A stretch of 64,000 bases of DNA from Pseudomonadales bacterium (GTDB lineage Bacteria > Pseudomonadota > Gammaproteobacteria > Pseudomonadales > JAHRWD01): the NCBI GenBank assembly GCA_029210125.1, contig JARGPR010000006.1, forward strand, positions 124,001 to 188,000. Direction: 5' to 3'. The translations under genes and the position numbers were made by a program. The notes under the pieces were generated by a model. The model worked only from the letters and a program-made list of their open reading frames with translations. It was not told the DNA's origin and did no database searches. Below, in pieces: positions 10,917 through 55,106 of the stretch; positions within the stretch are counted from its first letter, which is position 1, and each line of letters starts with the position of its first letter.

Positions 10917-12200
10917 ATGAATGCGCAATCTGACGCAGCTTCATACGGTACACCAGGAGCTTTAGCTCCCTACAGGATTCTTGATCTAACCGACCATAGA
11001 GGTTGGCTAGCGGGTAAAATGCTTGGGGATCTAGGCGCTGAAATTATAAAAATTGAGCCAGTTGATGGTGACCCGGGTCGGCACCGGGGGCCCTTTTTTA
11101 AGGAAAAAGCAGATGCTGACCACAGCCTCAAGTGGTGGTTCTTTAATCAGGGTAAGCAAGGGATAAGCCTAAACCTCGACTCCGAGGAAGGCAAAGCCCT
11201 ATTCAAAAAACTGGTGGCTGAAGCGGATGCCGTGATTGAATCCTTTGATGCCGGTTGGATGGATTCAATAGGCTTGGGTTACAAAACCCTTGAAGCGATT
11301 AATCCAAAAATCGTGATGACATCCATCACAGCGTTTGGCCAGGGAGGCCCCCACGCTGGATTTAAGGGCCCTGACCTTATCCTTGCCGCACTTTGTGGAA
11401 CCATGTATTTATGTGGTGACCCTGAGCGGCCGCCAGTGCGAATTTCAGTTCCACAGGGTTATATGCACGGTGCTGCGGAGGGTGCGGTGAGTACCATAAT
11501 GGGGCTCTATCATGCTCGCTCTACCGGTATTGGTCAGCATGCCGATGTATCTTCTCAGCTAGCCTACAGTCGCGCTTTAATGAACGCGACACCATTTCCA
11601 AAGCTCGAAAACCGAAGCCTGCAGCGAACCGGCATCTGGACTGAGTCCGTTGGGTCATTTCGTCGAGTAATTTATCCCGCAAAAGATGGTTTTATTACAA
11701 TGATGATCAATGGAGGTCTGCTTGGCGGCAAATCGATTGAGGCTATCTTTGAGTGGGCGGGGGAAACCGTTGAAGTACCTGAGAAGCTGTTAAATACAGA
11801 CTGGCAAGGACTTGATGCGGCAGCGATTATTCAAGATCCAGCGAAGGGGTTGTTGTTTACTGAACTTTCAGAATGGTTGATGGATTTTTATCCTAATTTC
11901 GATAAAGAAACTATATACGCTGAAGCACTTAAACGCCGAATCCTGCTGGCACCAGTTAGTACCATTGCGGATATATGCGAGGATGAGCAACTCGTCGCGC
12001 GAGAATATTTTGTCGATGTTGCGCATGAAGATGACGATGCTGTGACCTACCCTGGGCCATGGGCAAAAATGTCGGAAACCGCCGTTCATGTGGGCGCACG
12101 AGCACCCCATGTGGGAGAGCACAATCGAGCCATATTCGTTGATAAGATGGGTGTGAGCGAGGTCGAATTTAAGCGGCTGGTTGAAGCACGAGTCATTTAG
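10917..12200 (+). CDS. Class III CoA-transferase (CaiB/BaiF), probably non-catalytic subunit
   Basis: A 427-residue CaiB/BaiF family protein with the N-terminal fold (YRILDLTDHRGWLAGKMLGDLGAEIIKIEP, residues 19-48), the NQGKQGISLNL segment (77-87), and the central TGIGQHADVS motif (203-212). Where the family has its catalytic Asp, 21 residues before the TGxGQ threonine, this protein has Tyr182. The next gene keeps the Asp, so the two probably form a heteromeric CoA-transferase like benzylsuccinate CoA-transferase BbsEF, with this as the structural subunit. The start has a good GGAGGG site. The first of two adjacent genes; substrate unknown. Confidence 0.82.
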   Translation: MNAQSDAASYGTPGALAPYRILDLTDHRGWLAGKMLGDLGAEIIKIEPVDGDPGRHRGPFFKEKADADHSLKWWFFNQGKQGISLNLDSEEGKALFKKLVAEADAVIESFDAGWMDSIGLGYKTLEAINPKIVMTSITAFGQGGPHAGFKGPDLILAALCGTMYLCGDPERPPVRISVPQGYMHGAAEGAVSTIMGLYHARSTGIGQHADVSSQLAYSRALMNATPFPKLENRSLQRTGIWTESVGSFRRVIYPAKDGFITMMINGGLLGGKSIEAIFEWAGETVEVPEKLLNTDWQGLDAAAIIQDPAKGLLFTELSEWLMDFYPNFDKETIYAEALKRRILLAPVSTIADICEDEQLVAREYFVDVAHEDDDAVTYPGPWAKMSETAVHVGARAPHVGEHNRAIFVDKMGVSEVEFKRLVEARVI

Positions 12201-12251
12201 AGCCGGTAATTTCTTCGTAGGGAATAATAATAAAAAAGGTTGGATAGAATA

Positions 12252-13481
12252 ATGGCGGATCTGATTTTTGAAGGTTTAAAGGTTTGGGATATGTCCTGGG
12301 TAGGTGTCGGGCCATTGACGGCTCGATATCTGGCGGATAATGGTGCGACAGTCGTTCGTATGGACTCAAGCAAACGAGTTGACATTTTGCGTATTTCACC
12401 ACCTTTTCAAGATGGGAAACCGGGTTTCAATAACTCAATGTTTTATGGCGATTTTAACTGTTCCAAATTAGGTCTCGGTCTTGATATGGCGACCGAGGAA
12501 GCTCGTGAAGTTGCTAGAGAAATGGCGCAGTGGGCCGACGTTATACTTGAAAGTTTTACACCCGGAAACATGGCTAAATGGGGGCTTTCCTACGCGGATG
12601 TCTCCAAAGATAATCCGGGTGTGGTAATGCTATCGACCTGTATGCAGGGTCAGACCGGACCGCGTGCGCATTATCCTGGCTTTGGTAACCTGATGGCATC
12701 CAATTCTGGTTACTACGAAATCACCGGTTGGCCGGATGCAGAGCCGGTACCCGTTTATGGTGCCTACACGGATTTTATCGCTCACCGCTTTACCACCACT
12801 GCGTTAATCGCAGCTCTGGATCACAAAGCAAGAACCGGTCGGGGGCAGTACATTGATATTTCTCAATTCGAAGCGGCGGTTCAATACTTTGGCCCTGAGG
12901 TCTTGGATTACTCGGTGAACGGCAATACTTCCACGCGTGCTGGCAACTCCGACCCAGTAGCAGCCCCCCATGCAGCATACCCCTGTGTAGGTGAAGATCG
13001 ATGGATTGCAATTGCAATTGAATCGGATTATGAATGGCGAGTTTTCAAAGAAAAGATGGGTAACCCTGCTTGGGCGGAAGATGCTAAATTCGCAACTCTG
13101 TCGTCAAGAAAAGAAAATGAAGATGAATTAAATCAACAGGTTGCGGAGTGGACCTCTGGCTGGAATAACAAAGAGCTTCAGTACTTCCTGCAGCCAGATA
13201 TTGCGGCGGGTGCGGTGCAAGATCAATTCGATCTGTATGAAGACGCCCAGACTTTATACCGAGGTTACTTTGTTGATCTGGAGCATAGTGAAATGGGCAA
13301 GGTGCCCTATAACGGAACCCAGACGCTATTCTCAAAAACGCCCACGACTTTGAGTAAAGCTTCGCCCTGCGTCGGGGAGGATAGTCGGCAAGTGCTTAGG
13401 GACTGTCTTGGATTTACGGATCAAAAAATCGATACGCTGGTGGCATCGGGTGCAGTGGAAATCACAGGCCCGAATGCGTGA
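12252..13481 (+). CDS. Class III CoA-transferase (CaiB/BaiF), catalytic subunit
   Basis: A CaiB/BaiF CoA-transferase of 409 residues from ATG 12252, preferred over the in-frame TTG at 12240. The putative catalytic Asp is Asp174 in GAYTDFIA, 21 residues before TGRGQYIDIS. Such enzymes move CoA between carboxylic acids through an aspartyl-CoA intermediate. It follows the Asp-less paralogue by 51 bases in the same direction, so a heteromeric enzyme is likely. Family members act on carnitine, benzylsuccinate, itaconate, mesaconate and steroid side-chain acids, and the sequence alone does not choose among these. A strong terminator follows at 13517. Confidence 0.85.
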   Translation: MADLIFEGLKVWDMSWVGVGPLTARYLADNGATVVRMDSSKRVDILRISPPFQDGKPGFNNSMFYGDFNCSKLGLGLDMATEEAREVAREMAQWADVILESFTPGNMAKWGLSYADVSKDNPGVVMLSTCMQGQTGPRAHYPGFGNLMASNSGYYEITGWPDAEPVPVYGAYTDFIAHRFTTTALIAALDHKARTGRGQYIDISQFEAAVQYFGPEVLDYSVNGNTSTRAGNSDPVAAPHAAYPCVGEDRWIAIAIESDYEWRVFKEKMGNPAWAEDAKFATLSSRKENEDELNQQVAEWTSGWNNKELQYFLQPDIAAGAVQDQFDLYEDAQTLYRGYFVDLEHSEMGKVPYNGTQTLFSKTPTTLSKASPCVGEDSRQVLRDCLGFTDQKIDTLVASGAVEITGPNA

Positions 13482-14678: not shown

Positions 14679-14861
14679 AATAGTAAAGCTAAAATCATTA
14701 AATTCTGTAGAACAGAGTATTAAACGCTTTCATCGGTTATTGATCAATACACAGCGAGCAGATAACTCTGCAAATATATCAATTTGCTGCAAATTTAAAG
14801 GGTCGGGGGGGGATCTTTCGGTATAATCGTGGCCCCTAAATTGTTACTGATTGTGATCTTT

Positions 14862-15731
14862 ATGAAAGACTCTGCCGAAAACCCACTGGGCAAGCAGACT
14901 CAATACGACCAAGGGTACGACCCTACGCTGCTGTTTCCCATCTCGCGAACGGATAGTCGTTCGGTCTTTATGGAAAAGGGAGGCTCAGTTTTGCCCTTTG
15001 CGGGTTATGATTTTTGGAATGCCTACGAGGTATCCTGGCTTAATAGAAAAGGCAAACCAGAAGTTGCCGTTGCGCAGTTTCGTTTTGAGATCGAAACCAG
15101 TTTTATCATCGAGTCCAAGTCTTTCAAGCTTTACCTTAATTCGCTAAATCAGGAATGCTTTGAATCAATAGAAGCACTGAAGAAGGTGATTGTTAATGAT
15201 CTCTCCGTTTGTGCTTCCTCGCCTGTGCACCTGGATCTGATTCCTGTTTCGAAATATACCCCAACCTGTTTTTCTAACCCTGTCGGATACTGTCTTGACC
15301 AGCTGGATATTTTTGTCGATCAATACCAGACCGATCCAACAATACTTACTACGGAACAGAACGAAGCTAATTCGGATGTCCTTCAAGGTAACGAGAGTCA
15401 AATTAGTGAAACTCTGTTCAGTCATCTGCTGCGCTCCAACTGCCCAATTACTGGCCAGCCTGATTGGGGCACCATTCAAATCTCTTACCAGGGCGAAAAA
15501 ATCGATCACGCCAGCCTGCTGCGTTACATTATTTCCTATCGTGTTCATTCCGGTTATCACGAACAGATTACCGAGCAGATTTTTACTGATCTGATTTCAC
15601 GCTGTAGGCCTAGTCAACTGACCGTGCAAACCTGGTTTGTGCGCAGGGGAGGGCTGGATATTAACTGCCTGCGAAGCACCGAAAAGCTAGCACCGTTCAG
15701 CGAATTACTTCCCAGTCTGAGTAGGCAGTAA
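14862..15731 (+). CDS. queF: NADPH-dependent preQ0 reductase QueF
   Basis: Reduces 7-cyano-7-deazaguanine to 7-aminomethyl-7-deazaguanine in queuosine tRNA modification. From ATG 14862 the protein is 289 residues, close to E. coli QueF (282); an in-frame GTG at 14829 is less likely. The QueF motif ESKSFKLYLNS binds NADPH. The catalytic Cys194 in SNCPITGQPDWG and Asp201 seven residues later match E. coli Cys190 and Asp197. This is the long two-domain (tunnel-fold duplicated) type. It is a lone gene between divergent aroG and the next CoA-ester cluster. Confidence 0.95.
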   Translation: MKDSAENPLGKQTQYDQGYDPTLLFPISRTDSRSVFMEKGGSVLPFAGYDFWNAYEVSWLNRKGKPEVAVAQFRFEIETSFIIESKSFKLYLNSLNQECFESIEALKKVIVNDLSVCASSPVHLDLIPVSKYTPTCFSNPVGYCLDQLDIFVDQYQTDPTILTTEQNEANSDVLQGNESQISETLFSHLLRSNCPITGQPDWGTIQISYQGEKIDHASLLRYIISYRVHSGYHEQITEQIFTDLISRCRPSQLTVQTWFVRRGGLDINCLRSTEKLAPFSELLPSLSRQ

Positions 15732-16073: not shown

Positions 16074-16589
16074 GTGACGGAACATGATTTTATGGAGCGA
16101 GCTGTGCTTGCTTCAAAGGGAAACCAATTCGAAGATTTTAGCGAAGGTCAGGTGTATGAACATCACTGGGGGCGTACCCTCACCGATGGTGACAGCACCT
16201 GGTTTTCTACTCAAACCCTGTCATTTAATCCTCTCTATTTTAATGAGCCCTACGCTCAATCTTTAGGCCACCCTAAAATGGTGGTAAACCCTATGTTGAT
16301 ATTCAACACAGCCTTTGGCCTGTCGGTTGAAGATCTGTCTGAAGGCGGCGGATTGTTCCTGGGTGTTGATGATTGCGAATTTCTGATTCCGATGCATGTG
16401 GGAGATACCATTGTCGCCCGCAGTACCGTCGCCAGTAAGCGGATATCAAAAAGTAACAAGACCGCAGGGATTGTCACCTGGATTACCGAAGGCTTTAACC
16501 AGCATGGTGAAAAAACCATTCAATTTAAGCGTACCAATTTTGTGCGTTTCCGCGACCCCGAAACGGCATTAGCGGGAGCACAATCATGA
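16074..16589 (+). CDS. MaoC-like (hotdog) dehydratase, subunit A of a split hydratase
   Basis: A 171-residue single hotdog-domain MaoC protein from GTG 16074 (alternative ATG 16092). It opens FEDFSEGQVYEHHWGRTLTDGD (19-40), and the late part (SNKTAGIVTWITEGFNQHGEKTIQFKRTNFVRFR) resembles mesaconyl-CoA hydratase. The (R)-hydratase motif Asp-x-Asn-Pro-Leu-His is replaced by Phe51-Asn-Pro-Leu-Tyr55, so the classical catalytic Asp and His are absent. The next gene overlaps by four bases (ATGA) and encodes a second hotdog protein. Together they match the length of two-domain mesaconyl-CoA hydratases, so a heterodimer acting on a dicarboxylyl-CoA is likely. Confidence 0.8.
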   Translation: MTEHDFMERAVLASKGNQFEDFSEGQVYEHHWGRTLTDGDSTWFSTQTLSFNPLYFNEPYAQSLGHPKMVVNPMLIFNTAFGLSVEDLSEGGGLFLGVDDCEFLIPMHVGDTIVARSTVASKRISKSNKTAGIVTWITEGFNQHGEKTIQFKRTNFVRFRDPETALAGAQS

Positions 16590-17038
16590 GCTTAACCGGA
16601 AGCAACAACTACTTTGAAGATTTCGAAATTGGCCACGTAATCCAGCACGCCCGTGGTAAAACCATGTGTGAGAACGACAACGTCGGCATTACCATGCAGG
16701 TATTAAATACCGCCGATGCTCATTACAACGAAGATCGTGTAAAGGATACCTTTGGCAAACGATTGCAGTTTGGCGGTGTAACGATATCGATGATTATCGG
16801 CATGAGTATGCAGGATACCGGCGAAAATGCGTTGCAAGAATTAGGCCTCGATAAAATCCGACTCAAAACCTCCGTCTTCCACGGCGATACACTTTATGCC
16901 TACAGCGAAATACTGGATAAAAAACCGGTTGATGATGTATCTGGAAAAGTGACCTTCAAACACTGGGGTATCAATCAGAAGAACGAGATCGTATTTGAGG
17001 GCGAAAGGCATGCCCTGATCAAACGAAGACCTACTTAG
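16586..17038 (+). CDS. MaoC-like (hotdog) dehydratase, subunit B of a split hydratase
   Basis: A 150-residue single hotdog-domain protein overlapping the previous stop as ATGA, implying translational coupling and equal output. It opens YFEDFEIGHVIQHARGKTM (9-27). The motif region reads Asn41-Thr-Ala-Asp-Ala-His46-Tyr-Asn, so a His is kept where the hydratase-2 His lies, but the partner Asp is Asn41. It probably completes the active site with subunit A. The reaction, by family and context, would be addition or removal of water on a mesaconyl-, itaconyl- or similar CoA ester. The exact substrate is inference. Confidence 0.8.
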   Translation: MSLTGSNNYFEDFEIGHVIQHARGKTMCENDNVGITMQVLNTADAHYNEDRVKDTFGKRLQFGGVTISMIIGMSMQDTGENALQELGLDKIRLKTSVFHGDTLYAYSEILDKKPVDDVSGKVTFKHWGINQKNEIVFEGERHALIKRRPT

Positions 17039-17102
17039 AAACTGTCTTTGCTTGCTGCAAATTGCATCGAGCTAATCTGGTCAACCCGCAAAGGAGATAG
17101 CA

Positions 17103-18323
17103 ATGTCCGGTGCATTAAGTGGTTTTAAGGTTTTAGATCTGTCCCGAGCATTGTCCGGGCCTTTTTGTGCGATGCTGCTGGCGGATCAAGGCGCAGATGT
17201 GACCAAGGTCGAAGCGGTAGGTGGCGGAGATATGACACGCTATATGGTACCGTTTCCGCCTGAGTTTGAAGGTCGGGAACCATACGGTGGATATTTCCAA
17301 AGTATTAATCGCAATAAAAAGAGTATCGCTATTGATCTGAAAACTTCCGAAGGGAAAGAGATACTCCGTGAGCTTGTAAAAGACACTGATGTGTTGATCG
17401 AAAACTTCCGCACCGGCGTAATGGATAAGCTCGACCTTTCCTATGAGTCCCTCGCCGAAATTAATCCTAAGCTGGTATACGCGGCTATCAGGGGGTTTGG
17501 CGACCCGCGTACCGGTGAAAGCCCCTACACCAGCTGGCCGGCCTTTGATGTGACTGCCCAGGCAATGGGTGGTTTGATGAGTATTACGGGCCCAATCGAT
17601 GGTCAACCCACCAAAGTCGGCCCGGGTATTGGTGATCTTATTCCCGCCAGTTTGGCGGCATTTGGCATCATGGCTGCCGTGTACGATGTGAACAAAACCG
17701 GCAAGGGTCAGTTTCTTGACGTAGCCATGTACGATTCTATATTGGCCTTCTGTGAACGTATCGTTCCGCAATATGCATACACCGGTCAAATCCCTGGATT
17801 GGAGGGCAACGCCCATCCAACGCTATGTCCCTTTGGAGTATTTCCCGCTTTAGATGGTTTTGTGAGTATTGCCTGCCCGGGTAATCACCACTGGGCTAAC
17901 CTGTGTGTGGAGATGGAAAGACCGGAGCTGGCAGAGGATGAACGGTTTGCCACCAACCCTGACCGTGTTGCCTCTATGGAGGAAACCCTGTCAATTGTTA
18001 GCGAATGGACTGCTAAGTTCACTAAGAAAGAACTGACCGAAAGACTAGGTTCAAAATTACCCTATGGTCCGGTTCAGAATGCTAAGGATCTGTTTGAAGA
18101 CCCTCACGTAGAAGCCAGGAATATGCTTACAAAAGTTGATCATCCAGGTACTGGAGGCAACGCGTATTACGTGACGGATACGCCCATCAAAATGACTAAA
18201 ACTCCAGGTGGTGTTGAAACACGTGCACCTCTTTTAGGAGAGCATACTGATGCCATCATGGCCCAGCACGGATTTAACGAAGAACAGATTAAAAATCTCA
18301 AAGAAAAAAACATTATTCAATAA
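17103..18323 (+). CDS. Class III CoA-transferase (CaiB/BaiF)
   Basis: A 406-residue CaiB/BaiF CoA-transferase with all hallmarks: LDLSRALSGPFCAMLLADQGADVTKVE opening (11-37), NRNKKSIAIDLK (69-80), ENFRTGVMDKLDLSYE (100-115), catalytic Asp178 in GPGIGDLIPAS, and TGKGQFLDVAMYDS. Unlike the 10917/12252 pair, this one has a canonical active site and probably works as a homodimer. The AAGGAG ribosome binding site is strong. It lies between the hydratase pair and the CitE-like lyase (20-base gap), as mesaconyl- or itaconyl-CoA transferases do in C5-dicarboxylate clusters. Formyl-CoA transferase or carnitine functions are alternatives. Confidence 0.88.
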   Translation: MSGALSGFKVLDLSRALSGPFCAMLLADQGADVTKVEAVGGGDMTRYMVPFPPEFEGREPYGGYFQSINRNKKSIAIDLKTSEGKEILRELVKDTDVLIENFRTGVMDKLDLSYESLAEINPKLVYAAIRGFGDPRTGESPYTSWPAFDVTAQAMGGLMSITGPIDGQPTKVGPGIGDLIPASLAAFGIMAAVYDVNKTGKGQFLDVAMYDSILAFCERIVPQYAYTGQIPGLEGNAHPTLCPFGVFPALDGFVSIACPGNHHWANLCVEMERPELAEDERFATNPDRVASMEETLSIVSEWTAKFTKKELTERLGSKLPYGPVQNAKDLFEDPHVEARNMLTKVDHPGTGGNAYYVTDTPIKMTKTPGGVETRAPLLGEHTDAIMAQHGFNEEQIKNLKEKNIIQ

Positions 18324-18343
18324 TCATGTAGAAGGAAATAATC

Positions 18344-19267
18344 ATGTCCGCTAGACCACAACGACTACGAAGATGTCAATTATCCGTACCCGGTTCCAGC
18401 GAAAAAATGCTGAAAAAAGCTTCAGGGATGGAGCTTGATCACGTATTTTTGGATCTGGAAGATGCGGTTGCCCCCAGTGCAAAAGCTGAAGCCAGAGGCA
18501 TGATTGTTGAAGCAATCAATGCCCACGATTGGGCGCCAAAAACAATTTGCGTACGTATCAACGATGTTGAAACCGAATATTGCCACGATGACATTATCGA
18601 GATTGTCACCGGTGCAGGGGAAAAGCTCGATACCATCATGCTCACCAAAGCCAAAAGTGCTCATGATGTTAAATATCTTGAATTTCTGTTGAATCAACTT
18701 GAGCTTAAGCTTGGTTTGAAAAAACGTATCGGCATCGAATGCCTGGTTGAAGAAGTTGAAGGCATGATGAATGTTGAAGAGATCGCCGCCGCAAGTGATC
18801 GGCTTGAATGTTTGATTTTTGGCATGGGCGATTACTCCGCTAGTCAGGGTATGAATCTGCGTGGGGTTGGCGACACTAATGCAGAATGGGGTGGCTATCC
18901 CGCAGACCTTTGGCACTACCCTCGTTACAAAATGACCATTGCTTGTCGCGCCAACGGCATCGATGCGGTAGACGGCCCCTACGGAAACTTCCGTAACCCT
19001 GAGTCCTATCGCGTTGAATGTGAACGATCCAATGTATTAGGCATGGTTGGGAAATGGGCGATTCACCCAAGTCAGATCGAAATTGCGCAGCAAGTATTTT
19101 CCCCTACACAAGATATGGTTAATTCCGCGCGCAAACAGAAAGAGGCCTATGCAGAAGCGTTGACCCAGGGTCTTGGCGCTATCAGTGTTGATGGCATGAT
19201 GGTCGATGCAGCCAGTATTCGAATACAGCAAAACATCATCGACAAAGCTGATTTGATTGGAATGTAA
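18344..19267 (+). CDS. CitE-like malyl-/citramalyl-CoA lyase (HpcH/HpaI family)
   Basis: A 307-residue CitE-like TIM-barrel lyase. SVPGSSEKMLKKA (14-26) and DHVFLDLEDAV (32-42) are family signatures. Arg71 (CVRIND), Glu132 (IECLVE) and Asp163 (FGMGDYSAS) are the expected substrate and Mg(II) ligands. Relatives cleave malyl-CoA, beta-methylmalyl-CoA or citramalyl-CoA into acetyl- or propionyl-CoA plus glyoxylate or pyruvate. After a CoA-transferase and a hydratase, citramalyl-CoA or methylmalyl-CoA cleavage is the natural last step. Good AAGGAAAT ribosome binding site; 20 bases from the preceding gene. Confidence 0.87.
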   Translation: MSARPQRLRRCQLSVPGSSEKMLKKASGMELDHVFLDLEDAVAPSAKAEARGMIVEAINAHDWAPKTICVRINDVETEYCHDDIIEIVTGAGEKLDTIMLTKAKSAHDVKYLEFLLNQLELKLGLKKRIGIECLVEEVEGMMNVEEIAAASDRLECLIFGMGDYSASQGMNLRGVGDTNAEWGGYPADLWHYPRYKMTIACRANGIDAVDGPYGNFRNPESYRVECERSNVLGMVGKWAIHPSQIEIAQQVFSPTQDMVNSARKQKEAYAEALTQGLGAISVDGMMVDAASIRIQQNIIDKADLIGM

Positions 19268-19345
19268 ACGGTTTACTCAACGGCAAATAAACGACATTTG
19301 AAACATTAGATATTTGAAGTATTCAAAGAACAGGGAGATTTAATA

Positions 19346-20572
19346 ATGGTACTCGACCGCTACGGTAACGAAAAAGACAACGATGGTAATGACAATCCCG
19401 GGTACATGACCGAAGAGCGTTTAATGATTCAGGAAGTCGCCAGAGACTTCAGTATGAAAGAGGTACTGCCGGTAGCCAATGAACTTGACCCGATACAGGG
19501 AGAAATCCCGATGGATCTGCGCCGTAAAATGGGCGAAATGGGTTACTTCGGAATTCGTATTCCGGAAGAGTACGGCGGTATGGGCCTAGGTGTATTCGAA
19601 TATTGCCTGATTGCTGAAGAGCTGGCTCGTGGCTGGATGAGTGTCGCCAGTATTATCGCACGCTCCGGCGGCATGATGAGTGTTAGCGGTTGGCCAATGG
19701 AGAAACGGCTTGAATACACAAAGCGCGCTGCCAAAGGAGAATTTCTGGCAGCCGCTGCATTGTCTGAACCTGATGTGGGATCAGACTTGGCGGGTGTCAG
19801 TTGTCGAGCTGTGCTGGATGGTGACGAGTGGGTGATAACTGGTAATAAATACTGGTGTACCTTTGCCGATGGCTCCGATTACATCTCTGTTTTATGCCGC
19901 ATCGAAAGTGATGAAGATGCCGGTTACAAGGGCCTTAAGAGTATTATTGTCGAAAAACCACGGGGAGAGCTGCCCAATAACTGTCAGGGATCAGAGATTC
20001 CAAAAATTGGCTATTTCGGCTGGAAAACCTGGGAGCTGGCTTTTGATGGCTGCCGTGTTCCAAAAGAAAATATCATTGGCGGGCAGCAAAGCGAAGGATT
20101 TAAAAACACCGTGAGTGGATTGGAAGTAGCCCGTGCTCATACCGCCGCCAGGGCGATCGGACTTGCTCGTGGTGCACTGGAAGATGCGATTGTTTACTCC
20201 CAGCAGCGTGTGCAGTTTAAACAGCCGATATCTGACTTCCAGGAGACCCGTTTTAAAATTGCCCGTATGGCATCTGAGATCGAAGCAGCACGACAGCTTA
20301 TGTATCACGTATGTCATGAGCTGGACACCAAAGGTCGTTGCGATAAAGAAACCTCAATGGTGAAGTGGTTCGCAACCGAAATGGCCGAGCGGGTTACCTC
20401 GAATTGTCTGCAAATATTTGGCGGTGCGGGGTACACCAAACTGCATGCTATTGAACGATACTGGCGAGATGCACGGTTAACTAAAATCTTCGAAGGTACT
20501 TCAGAAATTCAACTACGCATTATTTCAGACCGAATATTGGGGAGGCCAACTAATCGCCAAAATCAGGCCTGA
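19346..20572 (+). CDS. Acyl-CoA dehydrogenase
   Basis: A 408-residue FAD-dependent acyl-CoA dehydrogenase. FAD-contact segments AAAALSEPDVGSDLAG (135-150) and WCTFADGSDY (170-179) are present, as is the C-terminal RDARLTKIFEGTSEIQ, where Glu383 is the catalytic base at the medium/short-chain and glutaryl-CoA dehydrogenase position. An unusual N-terminus, rich in Asp/Asn/Gly (residues 1-20), precedes the catalytic fold. In this cluster it may oxidise a saturated dicarboxylyl-CoA such as methylsuccinyl-CoA to feed the hydratase. That assignment is inference. Strong AGGGAG ribosome binding site; gap to the lyase gene is 78 bases. Confidence 0.87.
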   Translation: MVLDRYGNEKDNDGNDNPGYMTEERLMIQEVARDFSMKEVLPVANELDPIQGEIPMDLRRKMGEMGYFGIRIPEEYGGMGLGVFEYCLIAEELARGWMSVASIIARSGGMMSVSGWPMEKRLEYTKRAAKGEFLAAAALSEPDVGSDLAGVSCRAVLDGDEWVITGNKYWCTFADGSDYISVLCRIESDEDAGYKGLKSIIVEKPRGELPNNCQGSEIPKIGYFGWKTWELAFDGCRVPKENIIGGQQSEGFKNTVSGLEVARAHTAARAIGLARGALEDAIVYSQQRVQFKQPISDFQETRFKIARMASEIEAARQLMYHVCHELDTKGRCDKETSMVKWFATEMAERVTSNCLQIFGGAGYTKLHAIERYWRDARLTKIFEGTSEIQLRIISDRILGRPTNRQNQA

Positions 20573-20620
20573 TCAGTATTTTTAGAGCCGATAACAATAA
20601 TAAAAATGGAGAGTTACATA

Positions 20621-21388
20621 ATGAGACTTCAAGGGAAATGCGCAATTGTAACGGGAGCTGGTTCAGGTTTTGGGCAGGCCATGGCTACGACATTCGCAGC
20701 GGAAGGCGCTAAAGTTTTTGCAGTCGATCGCGATCAACAGGCGGCGCAGAAAACCGTGGATAATATCCAAGATAAGGGTCAGCACGCTCAATCATTCTGC
20801 TGTGATATAACCGACGCAGCAAAAGTAAAAGAGATGGTATCAAGCTGCATTAGCGAACTGGGTGGGCTTGATATCATGGTCAATAATGCGGGTTATACCC
20901 ATGCATCGCAGCCATTGGATCAAGTCACAGAAGATGATTACGACCGAGTAATGAATGTGAATGTAAAATCCATTTATCTCAGTGCGCTTGAGGTGATTCC
21001 TTATTTTCGCAAGCAAGGTAGCGGTGTAATTCTTAATACGGCTTCCACTGCTGGCCTTCGGCCACGTCCCGGAATGAGTTGGTATAACGCTAGTAAGGGC
21101 GCCGTAATCACACTCACAAAATCGATGGCGGTCGAGCTGGCATCAGAGAAGATTAGAGCCAATTGTGTTTGTCCGGTCGCAGCGAACACTCCCATGTTGG
21201 GTGACTTTATTGGTGACCGCAGTAAAAACACCGAAGAAACACGTAACGCAATGGGCGCTGATATCCCTTTGGGGCGGCTCACCGAATCACAGGATGTGGC
21301 CAATGCAGCGTTATATCTGGTTTCAGATGAAGCTGAATTCATTACCGGTGTGGCTTTAGAAATTGATGGTGGCCGTTGTATTAGCTAG
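20621..21388 (+). CDS. Short-chain dehydrogenase/reductase
   Basis: A 255-residue classical SDR from ATG 20621, preceded by GGAGAG. The frame could start at ATG 20606, but that codon overlaps the ribosome binding site. The NAD(P) motif TGAGSGFG, VNNAG, and the catalytic Ser142, Tyr155 and Lys159 (SWYNASKGAV) are present, as is the C-terminal ITGVALEIDGG. It may be a 3-hydroxyacyl-CoA or alcohol dehydrogenase. It shares direction and a similar leader with the upstream genes and is probably the last gene of this cluster. Confidence 0.88.
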   Translation: MRLQGKCAIVTGAGSGFGQAMATTFAAEGAKVFAVDRDQQAAQKTVDNIQDKGQHAQSFCCDITDAAKVKEMVSSCISELGGLDIMVNNAGYTHASQPLDQVTEDDYDRVMNVNVKSIYLSALEVIPYFRKQGSGVILNTASTAGLRPRPGMSWYNASKGAVITLTKSMAVELASEKIRANCVCPVAANTPMLGDFIGDRSKNTEETRNAMGADIPLGRLTESQDVANAALYLVSDEAEFITGVALEIDGGRCIS

Positions 21389-21616: not shown

Positions 21617-21646
21617 AAAAAAAAGGTCGCTAATTAGCGACCCTTT
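21617..21646. terminator. Intrinsic terminator of the glutamine synthetase gene
   Basis: A perfect stem GGTCGCTAATTAGCGACC (21625-21642) with eight A bases on the plus-strand left side, i.e. a T-run when read on the minus strand, 31 bases past the glutamine synthetase stop codon. It also has TTTT on the plus side, so it may work in both directions. Confidence 0.93.
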
Positions 21647-49418: not shown

Positions 49419-50096
49419 ATGACGATTGATCAACCTGTAATTGCAATTTTGGGTGGCTCTGGCGCACTGGGTAGTGGACTGGCATGGCGCTGGGCGGCGG
49501 CGGGTTTGCCAGTGATCATCGGTTCCCGTAATCAGCACAAAGCAGAGGCTGCGGTTACCGAAATTTCAAAACAGTATGAGGTTACACTCAAAGCAGGGCT
49601 CGATAACCGTGCTGCGGCAGAAGCAGGGGATATATTGGTACTCACCGTGCCTTTTCATCACCAAACTGATCTGTTAAATGAGATCAAGGAATTTGCCCAG
49701 GGTAAAATTTTTATTGATGTCACCGTACCGTTGGTGCCGCCCAAGGTAACGCGGGTACAGATGCCGAAGGAGGGCTCTGCAGCGCTAATCACCCAAAACA
49801 TATTGGGTGAAAATGTGAATGTGGTGTCAGCATTTCAAAACGTTGCAGCAGCCAATTTGCAGGCCAAAGGGTCGGTTGACTGTGATGTGCTGGTCACCGG
49901 AGATGACCTAAAGGCGCGCGAAAAAGTGATTGAACTTGCGAAACTGGCAGGTATTCAGGCATATCATGCGGGCCCACTGGATAACTCCGTAGCTGCGGAA
50001 GCACTCACTTCGATACTTATTCATATTAATAAACGCTATAAAGGGCATGCTGGTATTCGGGTTTCAGGTCTGGGTTCCAGATCTGACTCAGAGTGA
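49419..50096 (+). CDS. npdG: F420-dependent NADP oxidoreductase
   Basis: A 225-residue reductase passing hydride between reduced F420 and NADP. A Rossmann motif (AILGGSGALGSGLAWRWA, about 9-26) and IGSRN (about 33-37, the NADP phosphate pocket) are followed by LTVPFHHQ and DVTVPLVPP, AFQNVAAANL and the C-terminal PLDNSVAAEALTSILIHIN, all typical of archaeal and actinobacterial Fno/NpdG. It is the first gene of the F420 operon and the only F420-using enzyme recognised here. The next gene begins within 40 bases. Confidence 0.92.
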   Translation: MTIDQPVIAILGGSGALGSGLAWRWAAAGLPVIIGSRNQHKAEAAVTEISKQYEVTLKAGLDNRAAAEAGDILVLTVPFHHQTDLLNEIKEFAQGKIFIDVTVPLVPPKVTRVQMPKEGSAALITQNILGENVNVVSAFQNVAAANLQAKGSVDCDVLVTGDDLKAREKVIELAKLAGIQAYHAGPLDNSVAAEALTSILIHINKRYKGHAGIRVSGLGSRSDSE

Positions 50097-50133
50097 AATG
50101 TGGGGCGAGATAAACAGCGAAATGAACAGCGAC

Positions 50134-50934
50134 ATGAGTGATGAATTACAACTATTCGCATTAAAAAATATCCCATTGATCGAACCGGGGGACCATTTGG
50201 ATGAGGTCATTATTGATGCGCTTAAAGCCAATGGCTTCACACTTCAGTCGGGTGATCTGATTGTCATTGCCCAAAAAATCGTCTCAAAATCTGAAGATCG
50301 GTATCGGAATCTGGCTTCGGTGACCGTATCGGAACAGGCTATAAAATTAGCGCAACAGGTTGGTAAAGACCCACGTTTGGTAGAGTTGATTCTGTCTGAA
50401 TCCCAACAAGTGATCCGTGCGATACCGGGAGTGTTAATCGTGCAGCATCGGCTCGGGCTTATTCATGCCAATGCTGGAATCGATCATTCTAATATCAGCA
50501 ATGGTTATGCAAACAATGAAGCTGAATTTGAGGCAGATACGCGCGTATTGCTATTGCCAAAAAACCCCGACCAATCGGCGCAAAGGCTTCGTGAACAGCT
50601 AAAAAGCAGGACAGGAATGGATGTGGGCGTAGTGATTAACGATAGTGTTGGCCGAGCCTGGCGTAAAGGCACCATGGGGCTTGCGATTGGCGTGTCTGGT
50701 GTCGAGCCGTTACGGGATTTATGTGGTCAATCTGACCTGTTTGGCCAACAATTACAGGCCACCGAATTGGGCTATGCTGATGAATTGGCCAGCGCGGCAT
50801 CCTTGTTGATGGGGCAGGCGAATGAAGCTAGACCGGTCGTGCTGATCAGAGGTGCATCCCAGGGTAGCCCGGCGGAGCGAGAGCGAGGAGCACGGAGTTT
50901 GCAGCGGGAAGCGGAGCGAGACCTGTTTCGATGA
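50134..50934 (+). CDS. cofE: F420-0:gamma-glutamyl ligase CofE (FbiB N-domain type)
   Basis: Adds glutamate residues to F420-0 using GTP. From ATG 50134 it is 266 residues and starts SDELQLFALKNIPLIEPGDHL, the family opening; ATG 50098, right after the npdG stop, is an alternative. VIAQKIVSKSEDRY (GTP region), SNGYANNEAEFEADTRVLLLP and VVINDSVGRAWRKGTMGLAIG are family motifs. It lacks the C-terminal FMN reductase domain found in actinobacterial FbiB. Its stop overlaps the cofD start (ATGA). Confidence 0.93.
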   Translation: MSDELQLFALKNIPLIEPGDHLDEVIIDALKANGFTLQSGDLIVIAQKIVSKSEDRYRNLASVTVSEQAIKLAQQVGKDPRLVELILSESQQVIRAIPGVLIVQHRLGLIHANAGIDHSNISNGYANNEAEFEADTRVLLLPKNPDQSAQRLREQLKSRTGMDVGVVINDSVGRAWRKGTMGLAIGVSGVEPLRDLCGQSDLFGQQLQATELGYADELASAASLLMGQANEARPVVLIRGASQGSPAERERGARSLQREAERDLFR

Positions 50935-51941
50935 GTTTAAAACCTGAGCAGACTGTATTGGCATTATCCGGTGGTGTGGGCGGTGCAAAGCTGGCGCTGG
51001 GTTTAACCAGGCTTTTACCGCCTGAACAGCTATCAATAGTAATCAACAGCGGCGACGACTTTGACCACCTTGGTTTGCACATCAGTCCCGATATTGATAC
51101 CCACCTATATGCCCTGTCTGGTCGCGATAACCCGCAAACGGGTTGGGGCCAGCGAGATGAAACCTGGAGTTTCATGGAGTCGATCCGGGAGCTTAAGGGC
51201 GAAGACTGGTTTCAGCTTGGGGATCGGGATTTGGCATTGCATGTATTGCGTACTCAGCACCTCAAACAGGGCCGCAGCCTCACAGAAATTACCCAATCCT
51301 TTGCAGAAGCCTTTGGGATTGAGCATACCTTGATTCCTATGAGTGATGATCCGGTTCGTACCATTGTGAAAACCAAAGTCAAAACCCCGGTCACGAATAC
51401 CAAGACCGGGATGGCTGAAGTCGAAGATTTACCCTTCCAGCGCTACTTTGTTGAACAGCGCTGTCAGCCCGAGGTAGCCGGCTTCTGTTTTGAAGGGATT
51501 GAATCTGCAGCCGCATCCCCCGATTTTGTGAAGCGGTTAAACGATTCAAATCTCGCTGCAGTCGTTATTTGTCCGTCAAACCCCTACGTCAGCATCGATC
51601 CGATTCTTTTATTGCCCGCTGTTAGGCAGGCATTAATAAACAGCCCTGCAAAAGTAATCGCTGTCTCGCCGATTGTGGGTGGAGTAGCTGTTAAAGGCCC
51701 TGCTGCAAAAATGATGGCGGAACTGGAAATACCCGCTTCCCCTTTATCCATCGCGGCCCATTACCATGACCTTTTAGATGGTTTGGTGATCGACCAATTG
51801 GATCGTAGTCAGGGACAAGCGATACGAGCAACCGGACTACCTGTTCTGGTTACCGATACTATGATGGTTAATTTAGATATAAAACAATCGCTTGCTGAGG
51901 CTGCGTTAGAGTTTGCATTGAATTTGAACTCAGATGACTAA
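50931..51941 (+). CDS. cofD: F420 phospholactate/PEP transferase CofD (FbiA)
   Basis: Joins the guanylylated three-carbon acid to the deazaflavin Fo to give F420-0 or its dehydro form. The 336-residue protein shows ALSGGVGGAKLALGL (about 12-26), VINSGDDFDHLGLHISPDIDTHLYALSG (about 37-64) and late VAVSPIVGG.AVKGPA (about 243-258), which are CofD hallmarks. It overlaps cofE by four bases (ATGA) and cofC by eight, so translation is coupled across the operon. Confidence 0.94.
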   Translation: MSLKPEQTVLALSGGVGGAKLALGLTRLLPPEQLSIVINSGDDFDHLGLHISPDIDTHLYALSGRDNPQTGWGQRDETWSFMESIRELKGEDWFQLGDRDLALHVLRTQHLKQGRSLTEITQSFAEAFGIEHTLIPMSDDPVRTIVKTKVKTPVTNTKTGMAEVEDLPFQRYFVEQRCQPEVAGFCFEGIESAAASPDFVKRLNDSNLAAVVICPSNPYVSIDPILLLPAVRQALINSPAKVIAVSPIVGGVAVKGPAAKMMAELEIPASPLSIAAHYHDLLDGLVIDQLDRSQGQAIRATGLPVLVTDTMMVNLDIKQSLAEAALEFALNLNSDD

Positions 51942-52683
51942 TCTTTCAACCTGGGCCGTAGTTCCCGTTAAATCCTTCGCCGAAGCAAAGAGCCGTTTAT
52001 CTGATTTTTTGGATAGCTCCACTCGCAGAAATCTGGCCTTGGCAATGCTAGAGGATGCCCTGGTTACCTTGAGCGCAATTGAGCCGATAGATCGAGTGCT
52101 GATTGTTTCCAGCGAGCCTCAGGCTGCTGAGCTAGCTGATTTGTATGGAGCAGTGATATTGCGGGAACCCGTTGATACGGATGTAAACGCGAGCCTGGAC
52201 ACAGGTTTGAACAGGGCGATAAAGCATGCTGCAAATTTTTTGCTACAACAGAGCGTCGAGCGAATGCTGGTGTTGCCTGCGGATATACCGCTGATGAACC
52301 CAGAAGATGTTCGAGCACTCACTGCGCAGAGCATCGCTACTGATGACAAAAGCCAGAACCTTGCGTTGGTATCTGACCAGAAAGCTGATGGCACCAATGC
52401 GCTGTTGGTTTCACCTCCAAATTTGATTCAGTTCAGCTATGGCCAACACAGTTATCAACGCCACTTGCAGCAGGGGAAACAATTGAACGCGAATCTCTCT
52501 CTCCCCAATTTACCATCCTTTTGTCTAGATATTGATACGCCGGATGATCTGCATTCTCTGCTGCTTAATCAGCATAAATTAAGAGCAGATTGCCGTACCC
52601 TACAATGGTTAAATCACAACTTCAGCAAAGGAGTATTGAACCCATCCTTCGATGCTGTGGGTCTGAAGGAGCAGCGGTTATGA
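51934..52683 (+). CDS. cofC: Phospholactate/PEP guanylyltransferase CofC (FbiD)
   Basis: A 249-residue nucleotidyltransferase activating 2-phospholactate, phosphoenolpyruvate or 3-phosphoglycerate with GTP. The opening WAVVPVKSFAEAKSRLSDFL (about 7-26) gives the GTP-binding Lys motif, LVLPADIPLMNPEDV (about 112-126) the metal-binding Asp, and SFCLDIDTPDDL (about 193-204) the late Asp. The acid used cannot be read from sequence by eye. Its stop codon overlaps the next start as ATGA. Confidence 0.9.
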   Translation: MTNLSTWAVVPVKSFAEAKSRLSDFLDSSTRRNLALAMLEDALVTLSAIEPIDRVLIVSSEPQAAELADLYGAVILREPVDTDVNASLDTGLNRAIKHAANFLLQQSVERMLVLPADIPLMNPEDVRALTAQSIATDDKSQNLALVSDQKADGTNALLVSPPNLIQFSYGQHSYQRHLQQGKQLNANLSLPNLPSFCLDIDTPDDLHSLLLNQHKLRADCRTLQWLNHNFSKGVLNPSFDAVGLKEQRL

Positions 52684-55106
52684 ATCACTTCAACGGCGAT
52701 CCGTCATTTCAATTCGATCACGCTAATATTAGCGAACAACAAGCACTGCTATTAGCAAATGAAACGGATACCGCTGGGTTGATGGCAATGGCTGCCAAGA
52801 TGAGAGATCAACACCACGGAAAACGTATCTCCTATTCGCGCAAGGTATTTATCCCCCTTACTCATCTGTGTCGGGATGTTTGCCACTATTGCACTTTTGC
52901 TAAAACCCCAAAGCAGGTTGAATCGCCATATTTATCCATCGAACAAACCCTGGAGATTGCCCGAAGAGGCGTGCAGATGGGCTGTACCGAAGCCCTGTTA
53001 ACACTCGGGGAACGGCCAGAGCTGCGTTATCGGGCAGCCCGTGAAGCGTTGCAACAGTTGGGCTTTAGCTCAACGCTTGAATATTTAGCCGAGGTATCCT
53101 CGGCAATCCTTGCTGAAACCGGTTTGCTGCCACACCTAAACTCGGGTTGCATGGATCGCGAAGAGTTGAACGAACTACGTAAATGTTCGATATCGATGGG
53201 CATGATGTTGGAGAGCAGCTCAGAGCGATTATCTGAAAGAGGAAAACCACACTTTGGCTCCCCGGACAAAAACCCTGCGGCGCGTATCGCTACCTTAAGA
53301 GCCGCGGGTGAAATCGAGGTGCCCTTTACCACCGGAATTTTGATAGGTATAGGTGAAACGCGGCGGGAACGTATAGAGGCGTTGCTCATTATTCGCCAGC
53401 TGCATCAACAGTATGGCCATATCCAGGAAGTGATTATCCAAAACTTCCGCGCTAAACCGGGAACGCTGATGGCAACCGCTCCGGAACCAGACCTTAATGA
53501 ATTGCTCTGGACGTTGGCGATAAGCCGTATTGTGCTGGGTGCCGAAATGAATATTCAGGTACCACCTAATCTCAGCCCCGGAGTGCTATCCCAGCTGATC
53601 GGCGCAGGGATCAACGATTGGGGAGGCGTATCACCAGTGACGCCTGATCATGTGAACCCTGAGGCACCGTGGCCGCATCTAACTGATCTAGCAAATCAGA
53701 CAGAATCAACGGGTAAACAACTGGTTCAGCGAGCACCGGTTTATCCCTCCTATGCTAAAAACACCCAACAATGGGTTGATAAAAAGAATCATAAGGCGCT
53801 ATTGATACACTTGGATGGTAGTGGCTATATCCGCGATGATTCCTGGCTTGCAGGCACTGGAAACTCCCTGCCAGAAACCTATATTAAGCTACCGTCATTA
53901 AAGATCGAAAAAAAAAATATTAGTGCTAAAAGCATCGACCCCACGATTAGAGACATTGTAAATAGAGCGGCTAAAGGTGAGCTGATAACTGAGCTGGAGC
54001 TCGAGCTGCTTTTTCATGTGCGAGGGGACGATCTTGATTACGTAATTGAAGCGGCTGACCAGTTACGTAAAGAAGTAAATGGAGAAGTGATCTCCTACGT
54101 AGTTAATCGAAATATAAATTACACCAATATTTGTTATTTTCACTGTGGGTTCTGTGCCTTCGCGAAAGGCAAGGTTCAAGAGAACCTGCGGGACAAACCC
54201 TATAAATTGGGTATGGATGAAATAGCCCGGCGGGCATTGGAAGCGCAGAAAAAGGGCGCCACCGAGGTTTGTTTGCAAGGTGGTATACATCCAGATTACA
54301 CCGGTGAAACCTATTTGCAGATATTGAAGGCAGTTAAACAGGCGGCTCCCAATCTTCATATTCATGCATTTTCGCCGCTAGAGGTATGGCAAGGTGCAAG
54401 TACGCTGGGTTTGTCTATCGATGATTTTTTGGCACAGCTTAAAGCTGCGGGGCTCAATAGTATGCCGGGTACCGCGGCAGAAATCCTTGATGAGCGGATC
54501 AGGTCACGATTAAGTCCCGATAAAATCAATACTGATCAGTGGTGCTCGGTAATTAGCAGCGCACACCAACAGGGCATAGATACCACTTCGACGATTATGT
54601 TCGGCCATCTTGATGGCCCGGAGCACTGGGCGCGCCATCTGGTAACCATACGACAACTGCAGCAAAAGGCCGAAGCAGCTGGTTTAGGGGTAATCAAAGA
54701 GTTCGTGCCGTTGCCTTTTGTTCATATGGAATCGCCACTATTTCGCAAAGGTAAAGCTAGACAAGGCCCAAGCTTCAGGGAAACTATATTGATGCATGCC
54801 GTGGCGCGGCTTGGTCTGCATCCACATATAAAGAATATTCAGGTGTCCTGGCCAAAGCTGGGGCGTCAGGGGGCCGAAGCATGCTTGAAAGCAGGCGCTA
54901 ATGATTTAGGAGGAACCCTAATGAACGAGTCAATCTCTCGCGCTGCGGGGGCATCAGTTGGGCAGGAAATGACATCTGCAATGTTTGAACGTTGGGCACA
55001 AGGAATAGACCGTAAACCAAGACAGCGACGCACTAATTATAGCTGGGCTGAAGAACCCGGCCTCGTTGCGCGAACCGCTAGTTCAAATCTACAGCGAATT
55101 CTTTAA
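52680..55106 (+). CDS. fbiC: Fused Fo synthase CofG-CofH (FbiC)
   Basis: Makes the deazaflavin Fo from tyrosine and a riboflavin precursor. From ATG 52680, with AGGAG eight bases upstream and ATGA overlap with cofC, the protein is 808 residues. It contains two radical-SAM halves: CofG (about 40-380) with Cys64-Cys68-Cys71 (CRDVCHYC), and CofH (about 450-780) with Cys485-Cys489-Cys492 (CYFHCGFC). The order and fusion match actinobacterial FbiC; archaea and many others have separate genes. Late LGGTLMNESISRAAGA is a CofH hallmark. The 3' end overlaps the converging DUF2237 gene by 29 bases. Confidence 0.95.
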   Translation: MNHFNGDPSFQFDHANISEQQALLLANETDTAGLMAMAAKMRDQHHGKRISYSRKVFIPLTHLCRDVCHYCTFAKTPKQVESPYLSIEQTLEIARRGVQMGCTEALLTLGERPELRYRAAREALQQLGFSSTLEYLAEVSSAILAETGLLPHLNSGCMDREELNELRKCSISMGMMLESSSERLSERGKPHFGSPDKNPAARIATLRAAGEIEVPFTTGILIGIGETRRERIEALLIIRQLHQQYGHIQEVIIQNFRAKPGTLMATAPEPDLNELLWTLAISRIVLGAEMNIQVPPNLSPGVLSQLIGAGINDWGGVSPVTPDHVNPEAPWPHLTDLANQTESTGKQLVQRAPVYPSYAKNTQQWVDKKNHKALLIHLDGSGYIRDDSWLAGTGNSLPETYIKLPSLKIEKKNISAKSIDPTIRDIVNRAAKGELITELELELLFHVRGDDLDYVIEAADQLRKEVNGEVISYVVNRNINYTNICYFHCGFCAFAKGKVQENLRDKPYKLGMDEIARRALEAQKKGATEVCLQGGIHPDYTGETYLQILKAVKQAAPNLHIHAFSPLEVWQGASTLGLSIDDFLAQLKAAGLNSMPGTAAEILDERIRSRLSPDKINTDQWCSVISSAHQQGIDTTSTIMFGHLDGPEHWARHLVTIRQLQQKAEAAGLGVIKEFVPLPFVHMESPLFRKGKARQGPSFRETILMHAVARLGLHPHIKNIQVSWPKLGRQGAEACLKAGANDLGGTLMNESISRAAGASVGQEMTSAMFERWAQGIDRKPRQRRTNYSWAEEPGLVARTASSNLQRIL

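Follow-up and report, generated by a model that had tools for sequence, protein, structure and literature searches.

A predicted catabolic module for 2-substituted succinates with a mesaconyl-CoA hydratase divided between two proteins in a Pseudomonadales bacterium

Gene cluster and predicted pathway

We analysed a stretch of 64,000 nucleotides from a Pseudomonadales bacterium (assembly GCA_029210125.1, contig JARGPR010000006.1, positions 124,001 to 188,000), called the window here, in which six open reading frames at 16074-21388 lie closely packed on one strand. As read from family placement and active-site residues, they fairly probably encode a route for breaking down a 2-substituted succinate, methylsuccinate being the likeliest, to propionyl-CoA and glyoxylate; we infer the substrate, the side chain, the ester position and the direction of the reactions from sequence. 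An earlier note on this DNA had listed the same six genes, and their reading frames, order and families are borne out by Pfam and NCBIfam profiles, which recognise two MaoC proteins (MaoC1 and MaoC2), a class III CoA-transferase, an HpcH/HpaI lyase, an acyl-CoA dehydrogenase and an SDR oxidoreductase. Its general scheme, in which a dicarboxylic acid receives CoA by transfer and is then desaturated, hydrated and cleaved, is strongly supported.

In the predicted pathway, the CoA-transferase would pass CoA from succinyl-CoA to the carboxyl group beside the branched carbon, and the resulting methylsuccinyl-C1-CoA would be converted to mesaconyl-C1-CoA by the acyl-CoA dehydrogenase. Mesaconate as a substrate would enter one step later than methylsuccinate. 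MaoC1 and MaoC2, acting as one mesaconyl-CoA hydratase, would then form beta-methylmalyl-CoA, with the catalytic Asn/His pair supplied by MaoC2 and the Ser/Arg pair that holds the free carboxylate supplied by MaoC1. Finally, the malyl-CoA-type lyase would release propionyl-CoA, destined for the methylcitrate cycle, and glyoxylate, destined for malate via malate synthase. An MmgE/PrpD protein encoded elsewhere in the genome, likened to methylsuccinate isomerase, would probably interconvert the stereoisomers of the free acid.

A hydratase divided between two proteins

MaoC1 (16074-16589, forward strand, 171 aa) and MaoC2 (16586-17038, forward strand, 150 aa), whose genes overlap by ATGA, are, judging by profile coverage and conserved residues, the N- and C-halves of a mesaconyl-CoA hydratase with one active site divided between them. 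The Pfam mesaconyl-CoA hydratase model, PF19315 (353 positions, cut-off 26.5 bits), is above its cut-off over both hotdog domains but spread on two proteins, since MaoC1 covers positions 11-176 (112 bits) and MaoC2 covers positions 223-353 (74 bits). In PDB comparisons, each half finds its best alignment with its counterpart in the 352-aa MaoC-domain dehydratase 4e3e and in the beta-methylmalyl-CoA dehydratase 8hgn.

In the structure of the Methylorubrum hydratase, the N-half gives Ser79 and Arg142 to the site and the C-half gives Asn226 and His231 (PMC10164722; MeMeaC numbering is used throughout for the hydratase). Among the relatives of MaoC1, Ser79 is kept in 38/38 and Arg142 in 37/37, with one further sequence gapped there, and at the positions of the Asn/His pair MaoC1 has Ser/Tyr instead. 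Among the relatives of MaoC2, Asn226, His231 and Gly249 are each kept in 38/38. Two site positions deviate: Phe stands in place of Asn85 and, in 30 of the 38, also in place of Tyr248. At the thresholds used, MaoC1 and MaoC2 occur together in the same 38 loci and a single half in none, and betaproteobacterial clusters have the dehydrogenase gene between the two. As both halves co-occur in this way and different lineages keep the split, a MaoC1-MaoC2 heteromer would be the natural reading.

The lyase and the site of cleavage

The earlier note had spoken of a split MaoC hydratase and a CitE-like lyase. Its two coupled hotdog proteins stand as the hydratase halves, but the lyase (18344-19267, forward strand) is, on its nearest structures and site residues, of the malyl-CoA/beta-methylmalyl-CoA type, with glyoxylate and propionyl-CoA as probable products, and not a citramalyl-CoA lyase. 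Its nearest solved structures are the malyl-CoA/beta-methylmalyl-CoA lyases (MCL) 5ugr (249 bits) and 4l9y (241 bits). Nine MCL site residues, namely the Mg/catalytic residues Asp42, Glu44, Asp45, Arg76, Glu141, Asp168 and Asp299 together with Pro223 and Trp249, are invariant in the window lyase and in 54/54 cluster lyases. The Pro/Trp pair has been discussed as a possible cause of unfavourable pyruvate addition (PMC3832036).

Malate synthase G adjoins this lyase subfamily in 4 loci, and in the host it is encoded on the same contig as the lyase, about 27 kb distant. Clusters of the Cupriavidus type carry a second CitE-like paralogue, which does not keep the whole MCL site with its Pro/Trp pair and has Glu in place of the catalytic Asp, a replacement reported for the malyl-CoA thioesterase group (PMC3832036). 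The malate synthase G and thioesterase-like neighbours fit glyoxylate as the product of the lyase. We also considered the second CitE-like protein as a citramalyl-CoA lyase, for which the sequence search alone was not decisive; the change from Asp to Glu disfavours it.

Should the cluster instead be a variant of the itaconate/methylsuccinate cluster (Ict-Ich-Ccl-Mcd-Msi), C4 esters would be processed to acetyl-CoA and pyruvate. The gene types are identical, with CoA-transferase III, MaoC, CitE-like lyase, acyl-CoA dehydrogenase and MmgE/PrpD (PMC12290011), but the MCL-type lyase with its Pro/Trp pair and the scores on the curated models make this very unlikely. On the RipC/Ccl citramalyl-CoA lyase model NF038242 the window lyase reaches 143 bits (cut-off 375), and on the RipB/Ich itaconyl-CoA hydratase model NF038241 the MaoC halves reach 108 and 88 bits (cut-off 340). 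Identity to the itaconate-cluster proteins of Cupriavidus is 29% for the dehydrogenase, 30% for the CoA-transferase and about 30% for MmgE. In addition, C. necator SHC 2-3 (G004) has both clusters on separate contigs, the itaconate cluster on C6 and the present one on C43 (L035). Of the pathway options that had been named at the outset, the methylsuccinate/mesaconate branch through C1 esters is thereby favoured, while itaconate and citramalate are not. A search with NF038241 for true itaconate clusters in the host's order gave sub-cut-off matches only.

Three lyase relatives (L040, L041 and L043) are without partner genes, and the one at L040:292-8036 lies beside a fumarylacetoacetate hydrolase, a GST, a VOC protein, a FAD monooxygenase-like gene and an aminotransferase. 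The lyase subfamily thus has at least one other gene context. An aminotransferase beside some solo lyases was considered as a glyoxylate sink and scored 201 bits (cut-off 650).

The dehydrogenase and the CoA-transferase

The acyl-CoA dehydrogenase (19346-20572, forward strand) is probably a short form of methylsuccinyl-C1-CoA dehydrogenase. Its top PDB match is 6es9, the methylsuccinyl-CoA dehydrogenase (MCD) of P. denitrificans, with FadE3 a close second. The MCD residues Ser248, Arg252, Thr418 and Arg421 are kept in 33 cluster relatives, and the catalytic Glu535 is present in every cluster relative whose sequence extends that far. Arg252 of MCD is essential by mutagenesis (PMC5798300). It is missing from the other four PDB alignments listed, FadE3 having Arg421 without Arg252, and an Arg is likewise lacking there in the itaconate-cluster dehydrogenase and, with one exception, in the other acyl-CoA dehydrogenases compared; the full residue set was found in none of them. 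At position 285, which belongs to the methyl pocket in MCD, the window dehydrogenase has Ala, as in MCD.

The CoA-transferase (17103-18323, forward strand) probably works like a succinyl-CoA:methylsuccinate/mesaconate (C1) CoA-transferase, the likeness being one of function only. Its best NCBIfam model is NF041294 (succinyl-CoA:mesaconate CoA-transferase) with 465 bits, which leads the next model by 150 bits. The counterpart from the itaconate cluster of Cupriavidus reaches 198 on NF041294. The protein is also 45-47% identical to haloarchaeal proteins annotated mct. For Haloarcula Mct, mesaconyl-C1-CoA was the sole ester made, and kcat/Km was higher for methylsuccinate than for mesaconate (PMC5592240). 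The second 3-hydroxypropionate cycle, which had been among the options named in the earlier note, is disfavoured by the window CoA-transferase's score of 86 bits on the mesaconyl-CoA C1-C4 CoA-transferase model TIGR04253 (cut-off 725).

Several observations weigh against methylsuccinate breakdown by this module. The score of the CoA-transferase stays below the NF041294 cut-off of 700, and some gammaproteobacterial clusters are without a linked CoA-transferase. In the dehydrogenase, Phe replaces the third arginine of MCD (Arg376), Leu replaces Phe287, and there is no 170-residue N-terminal extension; the enzyme therefore differs from an MCD of the ethylmalonyl-CoA pathway type, which is marked by that extension and a three-arginine carboxylate site, and retains Arg252 and Arg421. 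The MmgE/PrpD gene is unlinked to the cluster in this genus, and its product might serve as a methylcitrate dehydratase instead because prpB and prpC are present and no other MmgE/PrpD was found. Lastly, position 285 varies: many relatives have Val, Ser, Thr, Ile or Leu there, and four alphaproteobacteria have Phe. Since Phe at the methyl-pocket site inactivated the R. sphaeroides MCD (PMC5798300), some members may act on a substituent other than methyl, and this variation is the main reason for doubting the methyl group.

The same variation would be explained if the chemistry acted on another 2-substituted succinate, such as ethylsuccinate, a longer alkylsuccinate or a tricarboxylate like tricarballylate, to give glyoxylate and a larger acyl-CoA. 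Pointing the same way, some clusters have a tripartite tricarboxylate transporter receptor in place of TRAP. We consider this reading unlikely, as residue 285 of the window enzyme matches MCD and the host has PrpB and PrpC for propionyl-CoA; moreover, the nearest characterised relative of every protein acts on C4-C5 dicarboxyl-CoA esters. In its most general form, this would be a mobile pathway for side chains that are not (only) methyl, with an obligate two-protein hydratase and its own MmgE/PrpD epimerase, again ending in glyoxylate and a larger acyl-CoA, and we consider that form unlikely too. No natural pathway of this kind for a non-methyl 2-substituted succinate is described in the literature searched.

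Conservation and spread of the module

The gene-neighbourhood comparison that the earlier note had proposed was run. Among 55 loci with this lyase subfamily, MaoC1 is present in 38, MaoC2 in the same 38, the dehydrogenase in 34, the CoA-transferase in 27 and MmgE/PrpD in 29; these counts are lower bounds, as some loci end at contig ends. By comparison, any partner gene is found in 0/24 loci of Rhodobacteraceae-type malyl-CoA lyases. The grouping is more than chance, and what had been described as a non-standard combination is a conserved module with MmgE/PrpD as a further partner and not an odd local set; the open papers searched held no matching description.

Alpha-, beta- and gammaproteobacteria all have members that carry the module, in most cases together with MmgE/PrpD. 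One operon is found on three plasmids, Tistrella pTM1, Paracoccus p9 and Pseudosulfitobacter P3, and comprises a TRAP transporter, MmgE/PrpD, MaoC1, dehydrogenase, MaoC2, CoA-transferase and lyase with an IclR or LysR regulator. On Paracoccus p9 (17.8 kb, 19 annotated genes) the module, including the TRAP dicarboxylate transporter, is the only metabolic cargo, and on a Variovorax plasmid the same core adjoins an ABC transporter. A Rhodococcus opacus plasmid (L161:9001-17027) carries distant forms of the CoA-transferase (50%), dehydrogenase (49%), MmgE/PrpD (37%) and lyase (40%); an alpha/beta hydrolase lies between its CoA-transferase and dehydrogenase, and hydratase halves were not detected at this locus. 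Marine and diatom-associated bacteria carry the module on small plasmids, which suggests that such acids are available in those settings. Within the host's own order, the lyase at this level was found in just 15/390 sampled genomes (12 of them with at least 57% identity), and the module is therefore an accessory trait.

The SDR gene (20606-21388, forward strand) is co-linear with the cluster and recurs in the same place in G061 with 83% identity, and was absent from the 55 wider lyase loci at the threshold used. With conservation limited to the genus, we dropped it as a pathway step; it is a genus-level extra outside the module core.

One MmgE/PrpD was found in the host genome, 41 kb upstream of the cluster (98.9 kb versus 140.1 kb on C20) and outside the window. 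It is about 68% identical to the protein encoded next to MaoC1, in divergent orientation, in L002. All the cluster-linked MmgE/PrpD copies form one clade, and the known methylsuccinate isomerase, with about 30% identity, falls outside it, which rules them out as orthologs of the C. necator enzyme (Msi). In Cupriavidus metallidurans CH34 (L160:10304-17624), the MmgE/PrpD gene of the cluster, located between CoA-transferase and dehydrogenase, appears to be broken into two pieces with about 3.5 kb between them, which looks like the result of an insertion.

Host metabolism and comparison with known systems

In the host genome, rated 99.8% complete, malate synthase G, methylisocitrate lyase (PrpB) and 2-methylcitrate synthase (PrpC) score above their cut-offs, and because of these the host can probably consume both glyoxylate and propionyl-CoA. 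Crotonyl-CoA carboxylase/reductase (Ccr) is not found over its cut-off in this genome (74 of 378 bits), nor is a methylmalonyl-/ethylmalonyl-CoA mutase found, and the ethylmalonyl-CoA pathway was rejected on these grounds.

Homologues of the hydratase, lyase and CoA-transferase act in the ethylmalonyl-CoA pathway, the methylaspartate cycle and the 3-hydroxypropionate bi-cycle, and the module might be part of such an anaplerotic or autotrophic cycle rather than a degradative route. There is only a slim chance of this, given the results for Ccr, the mutase and the C1-C4 isomerase (no search was aimed at glutamate mutase or methylaspartate ammonia-lyase) and the plasmid operons with their transporter, regulator and MmgE/PrpD.

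For the predicted catabolic module, the three reactions from methylsuccinyl-C1-CoA to propionyl-CoA and glyoxylate are already known from the lower ethylmalonyl-CoA pathway (MCD, Mch/MeaC, Mcl1), and the lyase shares 41-44% identity with the Mcl1-type lyases that were found in Rhodobacteraceae. The present set differs in the absence of Ccr and mutase, the two-protein hydratase, the dehydrogenase without N-terminal extension and the CoA-transferase that would feed in the free acid. With the haloarchaeal methylaspartate cycle (Mct, Mch, Mcl; PMC5592240) it shares, besides the related CoA-transferase, hydratase halves that match the haloarchaeal model and the same order of reactions from mesaconate; there, however, the hydratase is fused, the dehydrogenase and MmgE/PrpD steps are lacking and the role is anaplerotic.

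The itaconate/methylsuccinate cluster of C. necator and P. aeruginosa comprises Ict, Ich, Ccl, an (RS)-methylsuccinyl-C4-CoA dehydrogenase and methylsuccinate isomerase, and forms methylsuccinyl-C4-CoA with acetyl-CoA and pyruvate as end products (PMC12290011). CoA transfer, desaturation, hydration, C-C cleavage and an MmgE/PrpD isomerase are common to both systems, whereas the present proteins belong to other subfamilies, with a split mesaconyl-CoA-type hydratase and a malyl-CoA-type lyase, and are predicted to use the C1 ester and to yield propionyl-CoA and glyoxylate. We also considered a link of methylsuccinyl-C1-CoA to the breakdown of methylaromatics or branched alkanes, for which the literature searched gave nothing usable.

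What is new is that the reactions from methylsuccinyl-C1-CoA onward are predicted to be joined in a mobile catabolic module that stands alone, with split hydratase, short dehydrogenase and activating CoA-transferase. We found no description of this gene set in the open literature searched, a coverage outside which most subscription papers fall. If the prediction is true, branched C5 dicarboxylic acids would have a second natural route beside that of 2025, with different products. Methylsuccinyl-C1-CoA was termed a dead end for C. necator in the 2025 paper (PMC12290011), a view to be set against strain SHC 2-3, which carries both clusters. With its short dehydrogenase and two-subunit hydratase, the module would also offer a compact gene set for steps on which synthetic CO2-fixation cycles draw. 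In many genomes and plasmids of proteobacteria, it would supersede generic labels such as "CoA ester lyase" and "MaoC family dehydratase".

Flanking genes and other features

Apart from the MaoC1/MaoC2 overlap, the cluster genes are spaced by 20-78 bases. Upstream lies queF (14829-15731), and downstream a glutamine synthetase-like gene on the opposite strand. A hairpin with a 7-bp stem and a T-rich tail at 21625-21642 (forward strand) is a possible intrinsic terminator of the operon by consensus match only, and terminator-like sites here are not commoner than in shuffled sequence. Two adjacent class III CoA-transferase genes at 10917-13481, 2.6 kb upstream of the cluster, score above cut-off on no curated model; a DAHP synthase-like gene and queF lie between them and the cluster. 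In L003 and L006, a luciferase-like monooxygenase follows the cluster. Elsewhere in the window, at 49419-55106, translations read by eye resemble coenzyme F420 biosynthesis genes in this gammaproteobacterial genome, the set being F420-dependent NADP oxidoreductase-, CofE-, CofD-, CofC- and FbiC/CofGH-like.

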